Below, piece by piece: positions 37,046 to 59,502 of a stretch of DNA of 64,000 nt (its first letter is position 1; each line of letters begins with the position of its first letter). The notes below the pieces were generated by a model. The model made no database searches. It saw only the letters and a program-made list of their open reading frames with translations, and was not told the DNA's origin. Position numbers and translations under genes: made by a program. This DNA is from Candidatus Sulfotelmatobacter sp. (GTDB lineage: Bacteria > Acidobacteriota > Terriglobia > Terriglobales > Acidobacteriaceae): NCBI GenBank assembly GCA_025462865.1, contig JAOAPI010000087.1, forward strand, positions 1-64,000, read 5' to 3'.

Positions 37046-38575
<1,530 letters not shown>

Positions 38576-39325: not shown

Positions 39326-39362
39326 TTCCGATTAGGTGCCGACAAGAGTTCGTTTACGCCCC

Positions 39363-39410
39363 ATGAATTATTCGTCGCATGTGGATGAGTACAACAAGGA
39401 GGTGCATGGG
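39363..39410 (+). pseudogene. Remnant of thiC 3' coding region
   Basis: 48 bases starting ATGAATTATTCGTCG align without gaps to thiC codons 453-468 (38474-38521) with 41 identities. Five of the differences lie at third codon positions and four of those are silent, so the piece diverged while still under protein-level selection, before it was cut off from its gene. It encodes MNYSSHVDEYNKEVHG; similarity is lost on both sides. It lies just beyond the second REP unit. Confidence 0.8.
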
Positions 39411-47624: not shown

Positions 47625-48389
47625 ATGCCTGCTTCCAACGCTACCAGCCGCTTTTCTGATCGTGTCGAGAACTATGTACGCTATCGGCCTGGATATCCGC
47701 CGGAGGTTTTGCAGACATTGCGGACTGTGTGCGGCCTATCGCCTCCGCACTTGATCGCCGATATCGCCTCCGGCACCGGCATCTGGACTCGCGAGTTGCT
47801 GGAAAATGGCAACTCAGTTTTTGGGGTCGAGCCAAATGCCGAAATGCGCGCGGCGGGCGAGCGGCTGCTCGATGCGTTTCCTAACTTCACAAGCGTGGCG
47901 GGAACCGCCGAAACTACGACCTTGCCCGATCGGAGTCTAGATTTCGTGACCGCGGCACAGGCGGCGCACTGGTTCGAACGAGCGGGCGCGAGGCAGGAAT
48001 TCATCCGCATCCTGAGGCCTGGTGGTTGGCTGGTGCTGCTGTGGAACGAGCGGCTCACAGATTCGTCACAATTTCTTCGCGAGTACGAACGGTTGCTGCT
48101 GACTTACGGGACTGACTATGAAGACGTCCGGCACGAGCGCACGACTGACGCCGTCAACGAATTTTTCGATCCGGCGCCGTTTCAAGAGCGACAGTTTCCC
48201 ATGAAACAGGAGTTCGACTACGCCGGAGTGGAAGGGAGACTGCTGTCGTCGTCGTATGCGCCGGGGCCGGAACATCCTCAATACGCGGCTATGTTGCAGG
48301 AGTTGCGACGCATCTTCGATGACTGCGCAGTCCATGGTCGGGTCGAATTCGAATACAAGACTCGATTGTATTTCGGACGGCTTAGCTGA
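47625..48389 (+). CDS. Class I SAM-dependent methyltransferase
   Basis: A 254-residue methyltransferase of the UbiE/Methyltransf_11 type: motif I IADIASGTGIWT, GVEPNAEM, then TAAQAAHWFE and RILRPGGWLVLL. The first 30 residues (RFSDRVENYVRYRPGYP) are usual for this group. ATG 47625 is used, with AAGG upstream. Substrate unknown. It is divergent from proB; a TGGCAA / TTGCCA dyad lies in the gap near 47591-47613. Confidence 0.82.
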   Translation: MPASNATSRFSDRVENYVRYRPGYPPEVLQTLRTVCGLSPPHLIADIASGTGIWTRELLENGNSVFGVEPNAEMRAAGERLLDAFPNFTSVAGTAETTTLPDRSLDFVTAAQAAHWFERAGARQEFIRILRPGGWLVLLWNERLTDSSQFLREYERLLLTYGTDYEDVRHERTTDAVNEFFDPAPFQERQFPMKQEFDYAGVEGRLLSSSYAPGPEHPQYAAMLQELRRIFDDCAVHGRVEFEYKTRLYFGRLS

Positions 48390-48393
48390 ATAT

Positions 48394-48486
48394 TCTTCGT
48401 GGACCTTCGTGACCTTTGTGGTTAAGGATTTGAGACGCTTACCGGTGAAAAGATTGACCACGAAGGACACTAAGGTTCACGAAGGA
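48394..48486. repeat. Long imperfect inverted repeat (CTTCGTG / CACGAAG type)
   Basis: CTTCGTGGACC... to ...TTGTGGTT (48394-48422) and ACCACGAAGGAC... to ...CACGAAGG (48458-48486) are imperfect reverse complements with a 35-base spacer. Each arm consists of CCTTCGTG-like units. It lies in the gap between the methyltransferase and the decarboxylase. A strong hairpin without a T-tract; it looks like a dispersed repeat more than a terminator. Confidence 0.65.
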
Positions 48487-48533
48487 AATCCGAATCTGAT
48501 TTGATACCAGTTGCTTCTCTTTTGTTTGAGGTC

Positions 48534-49982
48534 ATGCCAGTGGCTGAAGAAAAGTCTTTTCACATGACGCCGGATGAATTTCGCCGACACGGCCATGCGG
48601 TCGTGGACTGGATTGCCGACTACCACTCGCGCATCGAGTCCTTCCCGGTGCTGTCGCAGGTTAAGCCGGGAGAGATTCGGGCATCGCTTCCGGCGACTCC
48701 GCCGGCGCAGGGCGAGCCGTTCGATGTGCTGCTGAAAGATGTGGAGAAGCTAATTCTTCCCGGGGTCACGCAGTGGCAGTCGCCGAATTTCTTTGCTTAT
48801 TTTCCTTGCAACGCATCGGGGCCCGGCATTCTTGGCGATCTTCTTTCCTCCGGCCTGGGCGTACAGGGAATGCTCTGGTCGACCAGTCCGGCCTGCACGG
48901 AACTTGAAACCCATGTGCTCGATTGGCTGGTAACGATGCTCGGGTTGCCGGAGAAGTTTCTTTCGTCGAGCACGGGTGGGGGCGTCATTCAAGACACGGC
49001 ATCGAGCGCTGCGTTGTGCGCGCTGCTGGCCGCGCGCGAGCGTGCAACGAACTACGCCAGCAATCAGAAAGGATGCGATGGACGCATTGTCGCTTACGCT
49101 TCCACGCAAACACACTCCTCGCTACAGAAGGCGGCAATGATCGCGGGCATTGGAGTCGACAATCTGCGGCTGATCGAAGTCGACGAGAATTTCGCGATGC
49201 GCCCCGATTCTCTCGCGCGCCAGATTGAAATCGACAAGAATGCCGGCCTAGTTCCCTGCTTCGTTTGCGCTACGGTCGGAACTACCTCTTCGAACGCGAT
49301 GGATCCTATCCCGAAGATCGCACGCATCTGCCGCGAGCACAATCTCTGGCTGCACGTGGATGCGGCGATGTCGGGAACAGCGGCGCTTTGTCCCGAGTTT
49401 CGCCATTTCCAAGAGGGAGTCGAACTCGCCGACAGCTACAACTTCAATCCCCATAAGTGGATGTTCACGAATTTTGATTGCAGCTGCTTCTGGGTTGCAG
49501 ACCGGAAAGCGCTGATCCAGACGCTGAGCATTCTGCCGGAATACCTGCGCAACCAGGCTACAGAATCGGGAGCGGTGATCGACTATCGTGATTGGCACAT
49601 CCAACTGGGCCGTCGTTTTCGCTCGTTGAAATTGTGGTTCGTGATCCGTCACTACGGTATTGAGGGTCTGCAGCATCACATTCGCCAGCACGTACAGCTG
49701 GCCCAAGGCTTCGCCGAATGCGTGCGCAACGATTCTCGCTTCGAGCTAGCTGCACCAGTGCCGTTAAACCTGGTCTGCTTTCGCCACAAAGCGGGGGACG
49801 CGGCAAATCAAACCATCATGGACCGCATTAACCGCAGTGGCGACTTATTTCTCACGCACACCAAATTGAATGGGAAGTTCACTCTTCGGCTTTGTGTGGG
49901 ACAGACCAACACACAGGCGCGGCACGTGGAGAAGGCTTGGAAGAGGATTTGCCAGGAAGCGGCGAAGCTTACGCCTGGCTAA
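48534..49982 (+). CDS. PLP-dependent group II decarboxylase (aromatic-amino-acid type)
   Basis: A 482-residue fold-type I PLP enzyme. The PLP lysine is Lys308 in NFNPHKWM; LHVDAAMSGTAALCPE carries the PLP-contacting Asp, and GVIQDTASSA fits the DDC branch. It should decarboxylate an aromatic L-amino acid such as Trp, Tyr, Phe or DOPA; the exact substrate is not given by sequence. ATG 48534 with GAGGT upstream is preferred to ATG 48501. A diverged copy of codons 382-401 occurs at 53231-53290. Confidence 0.9.
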   Translation: MPVAEEKSFHMTPDEFRRHGHAVVDWIADYHSRIESFPVLSQVKPGEIRASLPATPPAQGEPFDVLLKDVEKLILPGVTQWQSPNFFAYFPCNASGPGILGDLLSSGLGVQGMLWSTSPACTELETHVLDWLVTMLGLPEKFLSSSTGGGVIQDTASSAALCALLAARERATNYASNQKGCDGRIVAYASTQTHSSLQKAAMIAGIGVDNLRLIEVDENFAMRPDSLARQIEIDKNAGLVPCFVCATVGTTSSNAMDPIPKIARICREHNLWLHVDAAMSGTAALCPEFRHFQEGVELADSYNFNPHKWMFTNFDCSCFWVADRKALIQTLSILPEYLRNQATESGAVIDYRDWHIQLGRRFRSLKLWFVIRHYGIEGLQHHIRQHVQLAQGFAECVRNDSRFELAAPVPLNLVCFRHKAGDAANQTIMDRINRSGDLFLTHTKLNGKFTLRLCVGQTNTQARHVEKAWKRICQEAAKLTPG

Positions 49983-50029
49983 CCTGTCCCGGATCTTAGT
50001 TACCTTGTGGCATAGCAATTCCTCCCGAC

Positions 50030-50066
50030 GTAACTTGCCGCTCGCCCTAACTGGCAGTAACTTGCC
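50030..50066. repeat. Two GTAACTTGCC direct repeats 27 bp apart
   Basis: Exact ten-base repeats at 50030-50039 and 50057-50066, upstream of the first DUF4034 gene and after the decarboxylase stop. They may be an activator site, or chance. Confidence 0.35.
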
Positions 50067-50099
50067 CACTGAGGACGAATTACTCTCGGGGGATCACCT

Positions 50100-51611
50100 A
50101 TGACAGAAGAATTGTGTACTAAGTCAATCGGAGGCGTTTCTATCCGTTGCTTCAGTTGTTCTTCAGCCGCCCTGAAAAACAGCGTTCTCGGGTTACTACT
50201 AATACTGGTCACGAGCGGCTTCGCCGTGGCAGCCGATCCGAAATCAAATCCCAGCTCATGCAAACTCACTGAGCTAAAAGTCGCCGGCCTGGACGGAAAC
50301 CTGAGCACGGACGTCCATGCGGGAAGGACATATACAGCGACCGTCGCGCACCTCCTGTCGACAGAGAAATTCGAGCAACTCGACTGCTTGGCTGATCATG
50401 CCCGATTAAGCAAGGAAAGATTTGCCGGAGGAGCGTGGAGGCTCCACACGATCTACGTCAGTCTGGATAGCCCGGTCCAATATCCAGTCGCCCACGCTAC
50501 TCCAGCGGAATGGGACGTCCATCTTCAACATCTACAGACGTGGGTGACGGCACGACCCCAATCGATCACGGCGCGAGTTGCCTTAGCTCGTGCGTATCTT
50601 GACTACAGCTACCAGGCGCGAGGGGAAGGAACAAGCGACACCGTGAGCCAAAACGGATGGAAACTCTACAAGGAAAGATCTGCGGAAGCCGAAAGAATAC
50701 TTCAGGAGGCCTCCCGCCTTTCCAATAAGTGCCCGGAGTGGTACACCGCCATGCTGATGGTGGCGCAGAATCTGGGGCGGAGCGCGGCTGAAGCGCGAGT
50801 GCTTTTCGACGAAGCGTTCAAGTTTGAGCCGGATTATTTCTACAATGCTCGCCTCCTTGCCAACTACCTGCAGCCGAAATGGGCCGGCAAAGCGGGCGAA
50901 ACCGATAGGTTCATGCAGGAAATTGCTGATCGCATCGGTGGCGACCAGGGTGACATTTTCTATTTCCAAGTGGCGCTCACTCCTGGCTTGATCTGCGGCT
51001 GTGAAGACGAACCGAAACTGTCGATGGAAAGAATCGAGCGGGGGTTCTCCGCGTCGGAAAAGCAGTACGGTACTTCCATGTTCACCCTCAACAAGATCGC
51101 TTTCGTGGCGGCCAATAGTAAGGACTCCAACTCGATTCTGGCGGACAAAGCGTTGACTCGCATCGGCGAACAGTGGGACGAGGAGACGTGGCAGAAAAAG
51201 GAAAACTTTGATTCGACAAAGCAGTGGGCGACAAAGTGGGCCCCGAGAGCGGCTTTGAGGCTTGCGCAAGAGCAAGCCGCGCAAGCCAATATGCGGACAG
51301 CGGCGGGCGTACATTACAAGGTCGTTTTCGAAAAAACCTACAGGGCGTTGCTGCAGCAATGTGTACGCACTGATGGCAGTACGGTGCAGGAATGGCAGGG
51401 TAAGTTCGATGCGCTCACCGGCGTAGGGACAAATGGCAAATTCGAGGATGGTTCGATCAGTTGGATGGGGCCCGTGGTGATGTGCATGTACCGACAAATG
51501 CTAGCCTCTAAGAAAGACGGTTCTCCGATGTTTCCCGCTCCGCCACAGGCTCCTTATTGGGTAAAACTTGATCTGGATTGGACGGATTTTGCTCCAGTAG
51601 CAGCCAAGTAG
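50100..51611 (+). CDS. DUF4034 secreted protein, paralogue A
   Basis: A 503-residue protein with a signal peptide ending ...TSGFAVAAD (cleavage near residue 44). The body matches DUF4034 as I know it: FEQLDCLADHARLSKERFAGGAW, TARVALARAYLDY, KCPEWYTAMLMVAQN, FEPDYFYNARLLANYL and DRIGGDQGDIFYF. It is helical and TPR-like. The C-terminal PYWVKLDLDWTDFAP block recurs in paralogue B. Function unknown. It is followed by paralogue B after 51 bases. Confidence 0.78.
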   Translation: MTEELCTKSIGGVSIRCFSCSSAALKNSVLGLLLILVTSGFAVAADPKSNPSSCKLTELKVAGLDGNLSTDVHAGRTYTATVAHLLSTEKFEQLDCLADHARLSKERFAGGAWRLHTIYVSLDSPVQYPVAHATPAEWDVHLQHLQTWVTARPQSITARVALARAYLDYSYQARGEGTSDTVSQNGWKLYKERSAEAERILQEASRLSNKCPEWYTAMLMVAQNLGRSAAEARVLFDEAFKFEPDYFYNARLLANYLQPKWAGKAGETDRFMQEIADRIGGDQGDIFYFQVALTPGLICGCEDEPKLSMERIERGFSASEKQYGTSMFTLNKIAFVAANSKDSNSILADKALTRIGEQWDEETWQKKENFDSTKQWATKWAPRAALRLAQEQAAQANMRTAAGVHYKVVFEKTYRALLQQCVRTDGSTVQEWQGKFDALTGVGTNGKFEDGSISWMGPVVMCMYRQMLASKKDGSPMFPAPPQAPYWVKLDLDWTDFAPVAAK

Positions 51612-51662
51612 CGATTCGACATCAACGCGGATCTGCACGCTACCGGCACACACGATTCGAAA

Positions 51663-53198
51663 ATGCGGAGGCCATTTGTGGGTGAGAAGAACTGTGCCAA
51701 CCCGACTGAAAGTTATTTGGTCGGCTGTTCCAATTCTTCGACAACCGCGCTGAGGAGCACCGGTGCACTGCTCCTGCTGACTGTCGTGAGCGGGTTCGTG
51801 GGTTGCCACGGCAATCGCTCCTGGCATAACGGGGCGGCTGGTCAATCCTCGAAAATCAGCGCAAGTGGGAACACCTGTCGAATAAGTGACGAGGAAGAAG
51901 CTGGCTTGACCGTAGATCTAAGCACTGACGTCGGCGCAGCGGCCAGTTACAGAGATACCGTGGCGGGCATGCTGAAGGAAGAGAAGTTCGATGAAATAGA
52001 TTGCCTCGCCGACCGCGTGCGATCGAATAAGGAAAGATTTCCCGGCGGCGCATGGAAACTCCACGAACTCTACCAAGGAGTGTCTGAGCCAGTTCAATAT
52101 CCAGTACATGTCACGCCGGAGGATTGGGACGTACTTCTGAAGCGCCTGCAGGAGTGGGTAGCTGCGCTGCCAAAATCCGTTACCGCTCGCGTCGCGCTGG
52201 CTTCGGCATACCTGGGTTATGCCGCAGACGTACGGGGCGATGGGCGCGCCGATACCGTAAGTGAAGGCGGATGGAAATTGTTTCGGGAGCGCACGGCGGA
52301 AGCTCAGCGACTCCTACAGCAAGCTTCGGCTCTTCGCACCAAGTGCCCTGAATGGTACGTCCAAATGCAGAAGGTAGCTCAGAACATGAATTGGAGCGAG
52401 ACTGAAAAGCGCGCTCTATTCGCCAAAGCGAACAAGTTCGAGCCGGATTATTACTACTATGCCCGGGTTTTCACCAGCGACCTACTACCCAAGTGGGGCG
52501 GAAAGCCAGGAGCTATCGAACAATTTGCAGAGGAGATCGCCGATCGTGTTGGAGGAGATCAGGGCGACATTCTCTATTTCCAGGTGGCGATCGCGAACGA
52601 TGTAACGTGCGGATTTAACCACGATCCACACCTATCCCTGGCAAGGATCGAGAGAGGCTTTGAGGCCTCTGAAAAGCAATACGGAGTCTCCATGGTGAAC
52701 TTGAACCGGATTGCTTTTCTGACAGCTCGTACTCAGCCAGGCGACGCAATCTTCGCCAACAACGTTATGCAGCGCATTGGCGAGCAACGGGACGAGGAGA
52801 CATGGACAAGCCAGGACTTTGAAATGGCCAAGAACTTTGTGGCTTTCATGGGCCCGCGGCTGGCGGTAGAAGCGGCTGCGGACGCGAACATGAAAACCGC
52901 CGAAGGCCTTCGCTACAAAGCGTCTTTCGAAACGCCCTATAAAGAATTGGTACAGCAATGTGTGCGACCTTCGGATGGCGATGTCGGTACCTTCAAGGCA
53001 CTGACGAGCGTGGGCGCCAAGGGGACGGTCGAAGACGTCAGGATTTACTGGAACAGTCCTGCATCCATGTGCGTGTACGAGAAACTACACGCACTGCAGT
53101 TACAGAAGGCGACAGTCTTTCCACCTCCACCGAAAGACCCTTATTGGGTAAGGCTTGATCTGAACTGGGCAGAGTTTGCGCCGGTCTCGTCCAAGTAA
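51663..53198 (+). CDS. DUF4034 protein, paralogue B (probable lipoprotein)
   Basis: A 511-residue tandem paralogue of the gene before it, alignable over nearly its whole length (FDEIDCLADRVRSNKERFPGGAW, FEPDYYYYARVFTSDLLPKWGG, PYWVRLDLNWAEFAP). A hydrophobic stretch at 35-47 ends in FVGC, a plausible lipobox, so this copy may be membrane-anchored while copy A is soluble. Same strand, 51 bases apart; presumably one transcript. No ribosome-binding site stands out. Confidence 0.75.
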   Translation: MRRPFVGEKNCANPTESYLVGCSNSSTTALRSTGALLLLTVVSGFVGCHGNRSWHNGAAGQSSKISASGNTCRISDEEEAGLTVDLSTDVGAAASYRDTVAGMLKEEKFDEIDCLADRVRSNKERFPGGAWKLHELYQGVSEPVQYPVHVTPEDWDVLLKRLQEWVAALPKSVTARVALASAYLGYAADVRGDGRADTVSEGGWKLFRERTAEAQRLLQQASALRTKCPEWYVQMQKVAQNMNWSETEKRALFAKANKFEPDYYYYARVFTSDLLPKWGGKPGAIEQFAEEIADRVGGDQGDILYFQVAIANDVTCGFNHDPHLSLARIERGFEASEKQYGVSMVNLNRIAFLTARTQPGDAIFANNVMQRIGEQRDEETWTSQDFEMAKNFVAFMGPRLAVEAAADANMKTAEGLRYKASFETPYKELVQQCVRPSDGDVGTFKALTSVGAKGTVEDVRIYWNSPASMCVYEKLHALQLQKATVFPPPPKDPYWVRLDLNWAEFAPVSSK

Positions 53199-53230
53199 CG
53201 CTGTTGAATTTGGTACGTAGCGAATCTGGC

Positions 53231-53290
53231 CACATTCGGCAGAATGTACAACTTGCCCAAGGGTTCGCCGAGTGGGTGCGCAACGATTCT
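53231..53290 (+). pseudogene. Remnant of decarboxylase coding sequence
   Basis: 60 bases align without gaps to decarboxylase codons 382-401 (49677-49736) with 52 identities, and the frame is open: HIRQNVQLAQGFAEWVRNDS against HIRQHVQLAQGFAECVRNDS. Weaker similarity further upstream (53202-53218, GTTGAATTTGGTACGT) suggests a longer piece with an internal deletion. The rest of the gene is missing. It lies between the DUF4034 pair and the kinase gene and is too short to be functional. Confidence 0.78.
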
Positions 53291-53308
53291 GCAATTGGAA
53301 CTCTGCGT

Positions 53309-53314
53309 TATAAT
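53309..53314 (+). promoter_or_regulatory. -10 element TATAAT of the kinase gene
   Basis: Consensus TATAAT eleven bases before the ATG at 53326, which would give a leader of about five bases. No ribosome-binding site is visible, so the mRNA may be almost leaderless. It lies just beyond the decarboxylase remnant. Confidence 0.45.
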
Positions 53315-53325
53315 CCAGCGCACCG

Positions 53326-55920
53326 ATGAACCTGACCTCTGGCACTAAACTTGGTCCTTATGAGATTGTCGCGCCTTTGGGCGCGGGCGGCATGGGCGAG
53401 GTGTATCGCGCCCGCGACTCCCGTTTAAAGCGCGAAGTCGCGATCAAGGTTTTGCCACAGGCTTTTTCTCTGGATGCCGACCGATTGCGCCGGTTTGAGC
53501 AAGAAGCGCTCGCCACCGCGGCGCTAAACCATCCAAACATTCTCGCAGTCTTCGACCTTGGCACGAACGAGGGCTCGCCTTATGTGGTGTCGGAGCTACT
53601 CGAAGGAGAGACTCTGCGGGAACGGCTGCGTGGCGGAGCCCTCGCAGTGCGCAAGACTCTGGACTACGCCTTACAAATTGCGCATGGACTGGCCGCCGCC
53701 CACGAAAAAGGGATTGTTCATCGCGACCTGAAGCCGGAAAATTTGTTCATCACCAAAGATGGACGGGTCAAGATTCTCGACTTTGGTCTCGCCAAGCTGA
53801 CTCAGCCGGAATCTGGCGATCACACTTCTCTTCCCACCATGACTCAAGCCACGGAGGCCGGCATGGTGCTGGGCACCGCGGGATATATGTCGCCCGAGCA
53901 AGTGCGAGGCATGACGGTGGATGCGCGCTCCGACATATTCAGCTTTGGAGCGATTCTCTACGAGATGGTCTCGGGCAAGCGGGCGTTTCACCGGGATACG
54001 GCCGCGGACACGATGAGCGCCATCCTGAAGGAAGAACCTCCGGACCTGAGTGAAACCAATCGGAATGTTTCTCCGGCGCTGGAGCGAATTGTGCAGCACT
54101 GCCTGGAGAAGAGTCCCGAGCAACGTTTTCATTCCGCCAGCGATATTGCGTTTGATCTTGAGCATCTCAGCGGGATTTCCAGCACCACAGCGAGGGCCGC
54201 CGCGGCGAAGGTTGGGGGTACGCAACGTGGTAGCAGGATGGCGACCGTCGTAGCGGTTGGTAGCGCCCTTGCGCTTGTGATGCTCGGATTTGGTTGGTGG
54301 CTGGGACAAGGAAGCGGGCATGCTGCTTTAGCGGAATACAAGCAGATCACTTTCCGCACGGGCTCCATTGGAAACGCCCGTTTTACACCCGATGGCGGAA
54401 TTGTTTACAGCGCATCGTGGGATGGAGGAGAAAACCAGCTCTATCTTGCACGCACGGACGATCCAGGCGCGCGTGAACTGGGACTGAAGAACGCTGAACT
54501 GCTATCCATTTCTAAAAGTGGGGAACTGGCGATCCGGCTCAACACGGTGCGGTACGGTGGTTACGCGCGAAGCGGGACGCTGGCGCGGGTTCCGCTGAGC
54601 GGGGGAACTCCGCGGGAAGTGCTGGAGAATGTGCAGGACGCAGATTGGGCTGCGAGCGGCGAAGGTATGGCGGTGGTCCGTTACATTCCGGAGAACAGCC
54701 ACTGGCGATTGGAATACCCCATCGGCAAGGTACTGTTTGACAGCATCGACTGGATCAGCCACCCGAAGATTTCGCCGGATGGCAAGTGGGTGGCGTTTGC
54801 CGATCATGAAAATCCCGGAGGCGACGACGAAGGCTCAGTCGCGGTAATTCGTGCCGATGGCAAGGACAACAACCAGGATAAGAAGCTGTCTTCGGGATGG
54901 GTTTCGCTCGAGGGGATTTTCTGGTCTCAGGACGGAAATGAAATCTGGTTTACGTCGAGCGCCGGCGGCAGCGCCGAAAACCCACACGCCGTGACCCTCT
55001 CGGGCAAGCTCCGGACGATCACAAACGTGCCCGGAGGCATGTGGCTGGAAGATCTGCACAATGGAACGGCGTTAATGGTGACGCATCAGGAGCGGATCGG
55101 AATTCGCGGAATGGCGCCGGGTGGAAAAGAGGAACGTGACCTCGGGTGGTTCGGGTGGTCGATCGTTCGCGACATCAGCCGGGACGGTCACAAGATCGTG
55201 TTTGAAGAGGAAGGTAATGGTGGGGGGCCGAACTACACGGTGTTTTTGCGGGATACGGATGGGTCCCCTCCAGTCCGCATCGGTGAAGGACTTTCTGGAG
55301 CGATCTCCCCGGATAACAAGTGGGTGATCACGAAACCCGCAAAGGGGGGCCCTTTGAGTCTGGTGCCTACGGGAGCGGGAGAGGCAAGACAACTTACTCA
55401 TGACGCCGTCAGCTACGGCGCGGGCCAATGGCTGCCGGACGGGAAACACCTGCTGGCTTCAGGGATTGAAGCCGGCCACGGTGTGCGCGACTACCTGATC
55501 GACGTGAGCAGCGGAGACGCCAAACCTATCACTCCCGAGGGCATCGCAGGCGTCCACCTCTCGCCAGACGGGCAGAGCACGGCGGTGCGAGGCGCCGATG
55601 GGAAATGGGGAGTGTGGAAGTTGGATGGAAACACTATTCGCCTCATCCCGGATTGGGATCTGAGCTATCGCGTGACGGACTGGTCGCCGGACGGAAACTC
55701 GGTATACGCGGCCTCCAGCAAAGCCGACCAGAGGACGGCGAAGCTGTATCGTGTAAATGTCGCTACCGGAAAAATGGAGTTGTGGCGAACCTTCGGCAAT
55801 GGGGCTGGAGCGGGGATCGACGACGTTGGCCCTCCTCGTTTTTCAGCCGATGGGACGGCTTACGCGTACGTCTACGTGCGTGTGCTCGCAGAGGCCTATG
55901 TTGTGACTGGTTTGAAGTAG
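53326..55920 (+). CDS. Membrane Ser/Thr protein kinase with beta-propeller domain
   Basis: An 864-residue protein. The kinase domain at 10-285 is PknB-like: GAGGMGEVY loop, Lys41, catalytic HRDLKPEN (Asp134), DFG at 152-154, and activation segment GTAGYMSPEQ. A membrane helix at about 307-326 leads to an extracytoplasmic part of TolB/PD40-type blades (ISPDGKWVAFADHE, LSPDGQSTAVRG, WSPDGNSVYAAS). This is a common acidobacterial layout that would link an outside ligand to cytoplasmic phosphorylation. Near-leaderless start; it ends 18 bases from the convergent kinase. Confidence 0.93.
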   Translation: MNLTSGTKLGPYEIVAPLGAGGMGEVYRARDSRLKREVAIKVLPQAFSLDADRLRRFEQEALATAALNHPNILAVFDLGTNEGSPYVVSELLEGETLRERLRGGALAVRKTLDYALQIAHGLAAAHEKGIVHRDLKPENLFITKDGRVKILDFGLAKLTQPESGDHTSLPTMTQATEAGMVLGTAGYMSPEQVRGMTVDARSDIFSFGAILYEMVSGKRAFHRDTAADTMSAILKEEPPDLSETNRNVSPALERIVQHCLEKSPEQRFHSASDIAFDLEHLSGISSTTARAAAAKVGGTQRGSRMATVVAVGSALALVMLGFGWWLGQGSGHAALAEYKQITFRTGSIGNARFTPDGGIVYSASWDGGENQLYLARTDDPGARELGLKNAELLSISKSGELAIRLNTVRYGGYARSGTLARVPLSGGTPREVLENVQDADWAASGEGMAVVRYIPENSHWRLEYPIGKVLFDSIDWISHPKISPDGKWVAFADHENPGGDDEGSVAVIRADGKDNNQDKKLSSGWVSLEGIFWSQDGNEIWFTSSAGGSAENPHAVTLSGKLRTITNVPGGMWLEDLHNGTALMVTHQERIGIRGMAPGGKEERDLGWFGWSIVRDISRDGHKIVFEEEGNGGGPNYTVFLRDTDGSPPVRIGEGLSGAISPDNKWVITKPAKGGPLSLVPTGAGEARQLTHDAVSYGAGQWLPDGKHLLASGIEAGHGVRDYLIDVSSGDAKPITPEGIAGVHLSPDGQSTAVRGADGKWGVWKLDGNTIRLIPDWDLSYRVTDWSPDGNSVYAASSKADQRTAKLYRVNVATGKMELWRTFGNGAGAGIDDVGPPRFSADGTAYAYVYVRVLAEAYVVTGLK

Positions 55921-55938
55921 GCGAATTCAGACAACAGG

Positions 55939-58410
55939 TCAGGGCTGCGATCTCTGAGCAAGGAAATCAGACTGGCACTTCTTCGCGGCCGAGAGAATCT
56001 CTGCGAACTCTGGCGTACCTCGCAACTTTGCGAGCAGGGGATCGTTCTGCATCGCGGTGTAGGCGCAATACTTCCCCTCAATCCCACTCTTGAGCACGCG
56101 TAGAGCGGCGTCATTTTTCCCGCAGAAGGCGAATGCGGGTGCGCCCGTGTACCTGTTCTCGGCGTCAGGATTAGCCAGAATTTCGGCTTCGTGTTCCCGG
56201 GCGATCTTATCCACCTCCGATTGAGGCTGGTGGCTCACGCACGCCGCGAGCATCTTGTTCCGGAGATTGGTGCTCCCCAATTTCTCAGCTATTTCCCGCG
56301 CACGTCCCAAATCGCCGGTGTGCAGGTAGTGGCGCACCAAATTCCCCATTACCCATTGCGACCCGGCATCGAGCTGGAGATAGTCCATCGCCCGGGCATA
56401 GTTCCCCTGTTGGTCGAAGCCGAGGGAACAGGAACGGAGCTGGTAGTTTCCGGGATCTAAAGAGAGGGCGGTGTCGCACTCGTGGCCGGACTCGTCGAGC
56501 ACTCCGCCGTAACGCAATACATACGCCATACTGAAGTGAGCAGCGGCGCTCTCCGGATGGCGCGCTGTCAGGGCCTTGGCTTCCTGGTAAGCCTTGACCA
56601 ACTCTCCTCGTTCGACCCGCATGGCGATCAACTGGGCCGCTGCGTCGACCAGGTTTGGATCCAAAGTCAGGGCTTTTTCCAGGGCGGCACTCGCCCGTTG
56701 AAAAATGGCTTCGCCGCCTCCGCCGTATTGCGAATCGTAGTAATATCGCAACCCCAATGTGTACCAAGCTTGGGCGTAGGTGGGGTCTATGCCGACGGCG
56801 CGCTCGAGCATGGCGATGGCATCTCTGTTCGGCTGCGGATCGTGCGGCAGCGCAATGCTGCGAAGATAGAGGTCGTAAGCTTCTTCGCTCTTAGGCCGCG
56901 TGGCGCCTTCCGCGGAATCGGCGCCCGCTCCGAGCCCCGGGACTAGTCCCTGGCGAACTTTCGCCGTGATCTCGGCGCGCATGGCAATCATGTCCGGCGC
57001 GGCCACGGTCATGGTGTCGCGCCAAAGCGTGCGATTGTTCTCGATGTCGATGGCTTCCAGCGTGATCTGAAGTTGCGAGCCTTCTTTAAGAAAGTGCCCC
57101 GTAACCACGTCGGTCACGTGCATAGCGTGGCCGGCTTCCTGCAAATCTTGCGTAGGTGAGTCGTACTTGCTGGTCGTGGCAAACGGACGGATCGTCAGCG
57201 ATTTCACATAGCTGAGTGATGTTGCAATTTCGTCCGCGAGGGCGAGGCGAAGGAAGTCCAGATCCTTGTCGGCGCCCAGATTCTGCAAGGGCAGCACCGC
57301 AACAGTTTTCTGACTCGCAGTGCTGACGACTGGTCCTGGCCGCTGCTTGAAAAACCAAAAGATGGCGGCAAGCGCTGCGATCGTCGCGATGGCCACAACT
57401 GCGCCAATCACTTTGTAGGAGACCTTCTTCTCCGAAGACCTGGTTGTGCCGACAGTGCCGACGGGGCTGCGTTGACCGGAACTCTGCGATCCAGCCCCGG
57501 CGCTTGATTGTTCGCTGGTCGTTGATGCTGGCAATACCGTCCGTCCCGTGTCCGTGTCCCGCTTCAGGCGCCGCAGGTCGCTGCCCATTTCTGAGGCATG
57601 CTGATAACGCAGGCTGTTATCCTTCTCCAGCGCTTTGTTAATAATGTCTTCGAGCTTTGCGGGGACATCGTGATTCAGCCGCACGGCTGCGACCGGCGCA
57701 CGATTCATGATGGCTTCACAAATCACCGCCGAACTCTCTCCATGGAACGGCGTGTCCCCTGTGGCCATCTCGTAGAGGACAGCGCCAAAGGAAAACAAGT
57801 CGGAGCGCGAGTCCAATTCCCGGCCACGCACCTGTTCGGGTGACATGTAGGCCACAGTGCCCAGCATTGTGCCGGGACTGGTGAGGTGCGCCGAGTCCAT
57901 GGTTTTGGTTGCGCCAATTGTCTTGTTGGAAGAACCGGCAGGCGTTACTTTCGCCAGTCCAAAATCGAGAATCTTGGCGTGGCCGCGCTTGGTGACGAAG
58001 ATGTTTGCCGGCTTGATGTCGCGGTGAACAATTCCTTCAGCGTGGGCCACGTCGAGTGCATCGGCAATTTCGATGGCCAGTTGAAGCAGAGTGTCGGTAT
58101 CGAGCGGACGGGATCCAATAGTGTGCTTGAGGGTGAGGCCGTCCAGAAACTCCATGGCGATGAAGGCCTGGCCGCCCTGCTCGTCAATTTCGTAAATGGT
58201 GCAGATGTTGGGGTGGTTCAAGGCGGAAGCGGCCTCGGCCTCACGTTGGAAGCGGGCGAGGGCTTGGGGATCCTTGGCCACAGCATCCGGCAGGAATTTC
58301 AGGGCTACAAAGCGGTGAAGTTTGACATCCTCAGCTTTGTAGACAACACCCATGCCACCGCCACCCAACTTCTCGATCAATCGGTAGTGCGAGATGTTTT
58401 GGCCGACCAC
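55939..58410 (-). CDS. Membrane Ser/Thr protein kinase with TolB-like and TPR domains
   Basis: An 823-residue protein. Kinase domain at 9-280: GGGGMGVVY, Lys38, HRDIKPAN (Asp131), DFG 149-151, [11 protein letters not shown] Ser/Gly-rich linker comes next and a membrane helix at about 333-355. Outside is a TolB-N/FlgO-like domain ([19 protein letters not shown], 368-500), then TPR repeats to the end. GTG start. Convergent with the propeller kinase; the two differ in their extracytoplasmic parts. Confidence 0.93.
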
Positions 58411-58560
58411 TGGCGCTGAATGTTACGTGGGTGACCAAGGCAAGTCAATGAAACGTGGGGTACTGCTGAGTTTCCCGCCCGGCGCGAGAAGCCGTCGAAG
58501 GCCGCTCTCCACAAGATCCAGGTAATCCGCAACACTACGCAGAGCATGAGACTGGTGTTG

Positions 58561-59502
58561 TCAATCCGCTGACATGGGCGCGGGCGCTATGACGGGACGT
58601 GGTTTAGCGGGGATTAGAGTCTCTACTGGCTTCTCCAGCCACTGAAGCACTTCTGGTAGTGCTTTCCGCATGGCCACTTCGCCAGCACGAACCAGTTCAC
58701 TAGCACGTTTGAAATCGTCATAGGCGAAGCCAGCGACGTCGGGCTCGACAACGATGTCCGCGGCACCGCGCCAAACATGGCTCATCTTATCTTGAGCGAT
58801 GGCGAAGGACTGGCCGATCACATCAAAAAGATGACGGGGCGCGCCATCTTTCGACCACTGTCCTTTCAAATGCACCGCCAGCACTCGTTCCGCACCCATC
58901 TCTCGCACGGGAACCGAGGGTACCGGATGGGAGAGCATGCCATCGACCAGCCAATGATCGCGAATATTTACCGGCAAGAACATTCCGGGATAGGCACAAC
59001 TCGCCCGCACTGGATCGATGATCGAGCCTGAGTGAAAGACCACGGCTTCGCCACTATTAAAATCAGTCGCGGTTACGCCCAGAGGAATCAGCAATTCTTC
59101 GAACGTCTTCACTTTCAAAGTACGGGCCAAGAAAGCGATCATGCGATCGTTGGAAGCGAAGCCAAAGCGCGAGACCGTCCAGCGGGCAAAAGTGGTAAAG
59201 CGAACTGAACGTGCAAGGGCCTCAAGCTCTTGCACAGAAACGCCGCTGCAATAAGATGCTCCGATGAGGGCGCCTACGCTGGTGCCCGCGATCAGGCGAA
59301 TGGGGATGCCTTCTTCTTCGAGTACTTTTAGAACTCCAACGTGCGCCATGCCTCGCGCAAAGCCTCCGCCAAGAGCGAGGCCAATGACGGGAGTTCGAGG
59401 CTCAGAGGTCAGGCTCTTTCGCGAGAGCTCCCGCCCAAAGGCCTGTACGGACCGGATGATCTTGCCAATGCTCTTCACCGGCGCACCATTTTTTCCACCC
59501 AC
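58561..59502 (-). CDS. Patatin-like phospholipase (RssA-like)
   Basis: A 313-residue acyl hydrolase. The catalytic dyad is Ser75 in GTSVG and Asp187 in LVDGML; the oxyanion loop GGGFARG precedes. No signal peptide, so cytoplasmic. GTG start at 59502. Substrate probably a lipid ester. It is divergent from the NUDIX gene. Confidence 0.88.
   Translation of the reverse strand: MGGKNGAPVKSIGKIIRSVQAFGRELSRKSLTSEPRTPVIGLALGGGFARGMAHVGVLKVLEEEGIPIRLIAGTSVGALIGASYCSGVSVQELEALARSVRFTTFARWTVSRFGFASNDRMIAFLARTLKVKTFEELLIPLGVTATDFNSGEAVVFHSGSIIDPVRASCAYPGMFLPVNIRDHWLVDGMLSHPVPSVPVREMGAERVLAVHLKGQWSKDGAPRHLFDVIGQSFAIAQDKMSHVWRGAADIVVEPDVAGFAYDDFKRASELVRAGEVAMRKALPEVLQWLEKPVETLIPAKPRPVIAPAPMSAD

Follow-up and report, generated by a model that had tools for sequence, protein, structure and literature searches.

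The element e14 integrates into the 3′ end of icd, where it displaces the old end of the gene and brings a replacement end with it. Homology-facilitated illegitimate recombination has been proposed to cause displacement in T6SS effector-immunity arrays (PMC5361080), and the same mode, homologous on one side and illegitimate on the other, has been proposed for variable segments (PMC2884548) and reported for conjugation in E. coli (PMC3240628). Prokaryotic gene relics and pseudogene fragments are short, non-functional remnants of known genes (PMC522871). Here, a locus is described in which a short internal piece of a decarboxylase gene stands about 3.5 kb downstream of the intact gene, beyond two genes of a variable cargo.

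The window, the whole 64,000-nucleotide stretch of DNA that was analysed, lies on contig C144 of the draft genome G000 (189 contigs), whose host is an uncultured soil or peat acidobacterium of Candidatus Sulfotelmatobacter. On the plus strand, a methyltransferase gene is followed by a gene for a PLP-dependent decarboxylase, the DUF4034-like genes A and B, the decarboxylase relic and the Ser/Thr kinase gene KIN; 3′ of KIN, on the minus strand, stand a second kinase gene, KIN2, and then a patatin-like gene (Table 1). The interval between the methyltransferase and decarboxylase genes (48389-48500) contains an extragenic inverted repeat of the ACCACGAAGGACAC type, and similar sequence occurs in several related loci. 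Relics and displaced gene ends are already known kinds of feature, of which the decarboxylase relic is a new example.

Table 1. Features of the decarboxylase locus and of the parallel thiC cases, in window coordinates unless another locus is named.
Feature	Position	Strand	Remarks
Intact PLP-dependent decarboxylase	48537-49982	+	PF00282, E = 5.2e-127; other possible starts at 48501 and 48534
Segment of the intact gene matched by the relic, codons 381-400	49677-49736	+	52/60 identical
Leader of DUF gene A, approximate limits	49999-50076	+	common to DUF relatives at other loci
DUF4034-like gene A (cargo)	50100-51611	+	PF13226, 18.5 bits against a cut-off of 21.3; 51% identical to B
DUF4034-like gene B (cargo)	51663-53198	+	PF13226, 20.5 bits against a cut-off of 21.3
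Decarboxylase relic, core	53231-53290	+	blastn match; no stop codon in the frame of the decarboxylase
Possible extension of the relic beyond a one-base indel	53291-53306	+	14/400 shuffles as good; against the own gene alone not significant
TATAAT, probable -10 box of KIN	53309-53314	+	present in orthologue loci, judged by eye
Ser/Thr kinase KIN	53326-55920	+	PF00069, E = 6.3e-51
Second kinase KIN2	55939-58410	-	PF00069; G035 has KIN2 in the same slot
Patatin-like gene c5, distal limit of the variable slot	58561-59502	-	PF01734, E = 9.2e-30
thiC 3′-end piece (parallel case), behind thiC and a transposase gene	39358-39410	+	85% over 48 bases to 38474-38521
68-codon ORF/thiC loci	L274 2940-3326; L286 about 1500-1137; L273 2915-3221; L299; L301; L302	L286 minus	

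With e14 at icd, the locus shares the succession of intact gene, insert and displaced 3′ part with mostly silent differences, but no integrase is seen between the two decarboxylase copies and the relic lacks the end of the gene. Its likeness to T6SS arrays (PMC5361080) and variable segments (PMC2884548) would lie in a gene-anchored insertion of cargo that pushes parts of the old gene to the far side; unlike in those systems, what is left here is a single internal stretch, truncated on either side, of an enzyme gene of the housekeeping type, with a putative anchor and a putative donor. Finally, as a short non-functional remnant of a known gene the locus resembles the gene relics of PMC522871, but its 60 bases show little slow decay, and the source copy appears to have been mostly under coding constraint.

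The decarboxylase relic is, with near certainty, real. In a blastn search of its own genome with 53180-53340, the relic core aligned with the intact gene without gaps at 52 of 60 bases (87%, E = 7.9e-14), while the next-best place, self excluded, reached an E-value of 0.85. The pair was also recovered when the window was compared with itself (E = 3.2e-13), and the match extends to the protein level (residues 379-402, E = 5.8e-4). All 20 codons are open in the decarboxylase frame (HIRQNVQLAQGFAEWVRNDS). These results bear out the first-pass annotation, which had reported a 60-base match with 52 identities and an open frame at codons 382-401, a numbering that starts from the ATG at 48534; codons are counted here from the GTG at 48537, which makes the relic 381-400. 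The accompanying view that the fragment derives from a second copy of the decarboxylase is likewise supported. At 60 bases, or about 76 at most, of 1446, the relic cannot encode the full protein.

The first-pass annotation had also proposed an alignment of the flanks for wider similarity, which gave nothing on the left and a weak extension on the right. In particular, 258 of 400 shuffles were as good as the left flank (mean over 75 sequences), and against the own gene alone 3677 of 5000 were. On the right, a weak similarity of about 16 bases with a one-base indel is matched by 14 of 400 shuffles (mean over 75 sequences) and, against the own gene alone, by 970 of 5000, which is not significant. 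The left edge of the relic is sharp, and the weak similarity on the right stops just before the TATAAT of KIN. By eye, this hexamer is found shortly 5′ of the kinase start in all 18 orthologue loci; the output of a consensus promoter scan did not include it and gave no -35 match there. The relic was also considered as the KIN promoter and rejected, the scan having yielded no site within it.

Among 30 decarboxylase loci of the genus, its own included, the relic is closest to its own gene (52/60), followed by that of G016 (48/60). Of 57 attachment branches on a fixed tree of 30 taxa, that of G000 suited the relic best, by a margin of 6.9 log units, and SH and AU tests allow the next-best placements of the 60-base sequence. 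Seven of the eight differences between the relic and its own gene fall at third codon positions (binomial P = 0.0026); the resulting third-position divergence is 7/20, and 65 of 435 species pairs are at or under that level. At residue 395, the relic has a tryptophan, as do all 74 orthologues examined, whereas the intact own gene has a cysteine; at residue 385, the relic has an asparagine where all 74 orthologues have a histidine (80 orthologues were fetched, and six were dropped because the segment aligned too poorly). The cysteine codon of the intact gene lies at 49719-49721, and G007, from the other set, also has a cysteine there.

Together, the third-position bias, the open frame and the retained W395 suggest that the two copies diverged mostly while coding, and that the second copy was cut more than slowly decayed. 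The earlier statement that one copy "has since decayed" gives way here to divergence as coding sequence followed by a cut, on the strength of the third-position bias and the open frame. The H385N change makes it likely that the relic decayed somewhat once cut or that selection had been relaxed beforehand.

A parallel scar, found in the self-comparison of the window, lies about 10 kb from the decarboxylase. There, thiC (37118-38575, PF01964) is followed by a REP-like palindrome and then by a Y1-type transposase gene (PF01797), after which the palindrome recurs and a displaced thiC 3′-end piece of 48-53 bases ends the series. Third positions account for six of the nine differences of this piece (48 bases) and, when those of the decarboxylase relic are added, for 13 of 17 (P = 3.4e-4). 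Across 45 genomes, 40 of them with a thiC match, thiC 3′ pieces behind thiC were also found in G002, G011, G019 and G061, and broken or partial matches in G026, G023 and G012. An ORF of 68 codons lies between thiC and the displaced piece in G002, G011 and G061, the last with a thiC that itself runs into an assembly gap, and, by coordinates, in G062. Moreover, the ORF is directly 3′ of thiC in six genomes (G002, G035, G011, G062, G023 and G061), including G035, which has no displaced thiC piece; the other five copies are 89-94% identical in DNA to that of G002, for G061 over 183 bases only. Distant copies (74-77%) occur at other places in G064, G016 and G014. The ORF has no significant Pfam match and is possibly a small mobile cassette. 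Overall, the cargoes at thiC differ between a transposase, the 68-codon ORF and no recognised gene. Over the last 117 bases of thiC, the identity of G035 to G002 and G011 is 0.89 and 0.87, compared with 0.81-0.89 and 0.78-0.88 in the nine preceding windows; as hints at a donor, such end identities among carriers of the ORF are suggestive only.

In the sequence sampled, scars of this kind are rare. A scan filtered for gene pieces on the same strand, downstream and outside long frames returned seven hits in G000, where it covered 863,987 bases (the window and 40 partly overlapping stretches). It returned none in related loci, for which 786,716 bases were covered; many of these loci share sequence with one another, and the thiC loci are not among them. 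The two window scars alone show a third-position excess in the G000 scan, in which three gapped hits are unscored. The remaining hits were set aside. The two at L233 are one repeat pair seen from both strands, and that at L235 consists of repeats; because these hits are gapped, their codon bias is unscored. The L246 hit lies inside a longer frame on the opposite strand (11/51), and the L262 hit (6/18) presumably resembles, from its translation, two ExbD/TolR-type paralogues.

The decarboxylase borders a slot whose contents change from genome to genome. The backbone consists of proA-proB, the methyltransferase and the decarboxylase on one side and of patatin, NUDIX and 3-hydroxyacyl-CoA dehydrogenase genes on the other, and the cargo of the decarboxylase-patatin interval (window 49983-58560) varies among the Candidatus Sulfotelmatobacter loci compared. 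L138, L147, L149 and L173 have nothing or next to nothing in the slot; elsewhere it contains a PIN/antitoxin pair, a pair of APH/RapZ-type and nucleotidyltransferase genes, KIN, KIN2, mixtures of these or other genes, and G033, G061, G014, G028, G036 and G023 have different genes downstream of the decarboxylase. KIN occupies the slot in G000, in G025 with the PIN/antitoxin pair between, and in G030 with the APH/RapZ-type and nucleotidyltransferase genes between; for the other 16 genomes that have a close orthologue of KIN, the decarboxylase and KIN are on different contigs. Thus, no genome was found with the decarboxylase immediately 5′ of KIN, and the single decarboxylase directly before the kinase that had been envisaged for genomes without DUF4034 was not encountered, G025 and G030 carrying other genes between the two. 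The DUF pair is missing from the slot in all other loci compared. The pair looks inserted, because the slot of G025 and G030 has the decarboxylase and the kinase and no DUF pair, which is in keeping with the earlier suggestion that the pair had entered.

The name DUF4034 is an approximate one, since both A and B score below the Pfam cut-off (Table 1) while the G028 orthologue passes it (24.4 bits). Of 61 genomes, 16 have DUF4034-like relatives, a count that includes G000 itself and one genome with no more than a 36-residue match. Every carrier is one of the 37 genomes of the genus, and none of the 24 outside it has a relative. In the DUF tree, A groups with the copy of G028 (support 0.83) and B with that of G014 (0.98); therefore, the pair is not a recent tandem duplication. 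The six close relatives compared are all at other loci. A stretch similar to the leader of gene A lies upstream of all six (at most 3 of 300 shuffles each; for G028, only 15 bases), and the sequence downstream of the pair has no counterpart beside any of them. On contig C125 of G000, the neighbours of the G025/G013 DUF locus are present and the DUF gene is absent, with no DUF relic in the approximately 450 bases where G025 has the gene. The predicted structure of gene B has a mean pLDDT of 50 and is usable only in its C-terminal domain; this domain (residues ~400-505), confidently modelled, bears a weak resemblance to the C-terminal domains of TolA/TonB (TonB_C, E = 0.087). A comparison of the structure with the PDB gave nothing at an E-value of 0.001 or better, the TolA/TonB matches being weak. 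A search of a limited collection of papers for DUF4034 surfaced none.

An intact gene, a cargo and a displaced 3′ piece with mostly silent differences fit anchored recombination. We give about even chances to the proposal that recombination anchored in the decarboxylase brought in the DUF4034-like pair and left behind the displaced stump of a near-allelic second copy. In this process, DNA from a close relative would have entered by recombination anchored in the decarboxylase, carrying the DUF4034-like pair as cargo, through a homologous junction on the decarboxylase side and an illegitimate one on the far side. The displaced 3′ part of the decarboxylase would have stayed beyond the cargo, and a later deletion would have removed the stump from about codon 405 up to the core promoter of KIN; this second deletion must be assumed because the stump lacks the end of the gene. 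What we infer is the insertion by anchoring, which copy was the resident one, the loss of the stump's end and the succession of these steps.

Counted in favour of an anchored insertion are the genome-wide E-value of the match, the closeness of the relic to its own gene, the third-position bias with the retained W395, the changing cargo of the slot, the DUF relatives at other loci, the leader of gene A, the parallel at thiC and the rarity of such scars. Counted against it are the permissive placement tests, the missing gene end, the H385N change, an intact gene that is not demonstrably mosaic and the lack of a donor: the searches found neither a donor nor a genome with the decarboxylase and the DUF pair and without the relic. 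A mosaic origin of the intact decarboxylase was considered after sliding identities hinted at another nearest clade beyond column 1050, and it was not borne out by trees, in which both parts place G000 with G013/G035 or with G013/G035/G025; a minority-site test was not significant for any of three cuts (P = 0.17, 0.31 and 0.52).

The search for relics was extended to other loci. In 80 decarboxylase loci, some of them just 3-6 kb long and drawn from a collection from which records very near G000 may be absent, no further piece of the gene was found (alignment under 150 residues, E < 1), apart from a 14-residue match in L154 that adjoins the decarboxylase's own start. Upstream of 18 kinase orthologues, in stretches of up to 1.5 kb (54 bases in L064, 467 in L068 and 770 in L073), there was no relic, and the sole decarboxylase match was the intact neighbour in G025.

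The nearness of the relic to its own gene, and the evolution of both copies as coding sequence, are also what would be expected of a tandem duplication within the lineage, in which two working copies stood side by side for long, the DUF pair then came to lie between them, and deletion reduced the second one to a stump. This course of events is possible and rather unlikely: G012 and G001 have pieces of a possible second close copy, but these lie at contig ends, in drafts whose contamination is estimated at 3% and 9%, none of 45 genomes has two full-length close copies, and thiC scars of the same shape also carry cargo. A more doubtful account is that the stump hitch-hiked, the donor block already consisting of the DUF pair and a decarboxylase fragment that were copied in whole. 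The relic does abut the DUF pair, and DUF genes do change place within the genus; however, none of the six DUF relatives compared has matching downstream sequence, and blastn matches of 53199-53325 are to decarboxylase segments and kinase leaders only. The geometry of intact gene, insert and displaced end, together with its recurrence at thiC, recalls a site-specific element that targets the 3′ ends of genes, supplies its own replacement end and would here have carried the DUF pair, but just the DUF pair is annotated between the copies, no integrase-like ORF is listed, and the thiC cargoes differ among cases, all of which makes such an element very improbable. Although the draft is in 189 contigs, chance similarity or an assembly error is scarcely credible, given an E-value of 7.9e-14 against chance and a 13% divergence, with kept frame and third-position bias, that an assembly repeat would not give.

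The relic alone is an ordinary recombination scar and no working gene. Taken with the thiC cases, it points to a simple means of seeing how small accessory genes arrive at places 3′ of conserved ones in uncultured soil Acidobacteria. Extending the anchored insertion proposed at the decarboxylase, we tentatively raise the possibility, itself on the unlikely side, that Candidatus Sulfotelmatobacter has repeatedly placed cargo behind conserved genes (decarboxylase, thiC) by insertions that exchange the 3′ end and leave the old end as a scar, and that the 68-codon ORF has spread in this way across clades at thiC. Displaced gene ends would mark the insertions, and they could be dated and traced to donors. 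If repeated 3′-end exchange is true, gene flow from one species to another could be read from the scars.
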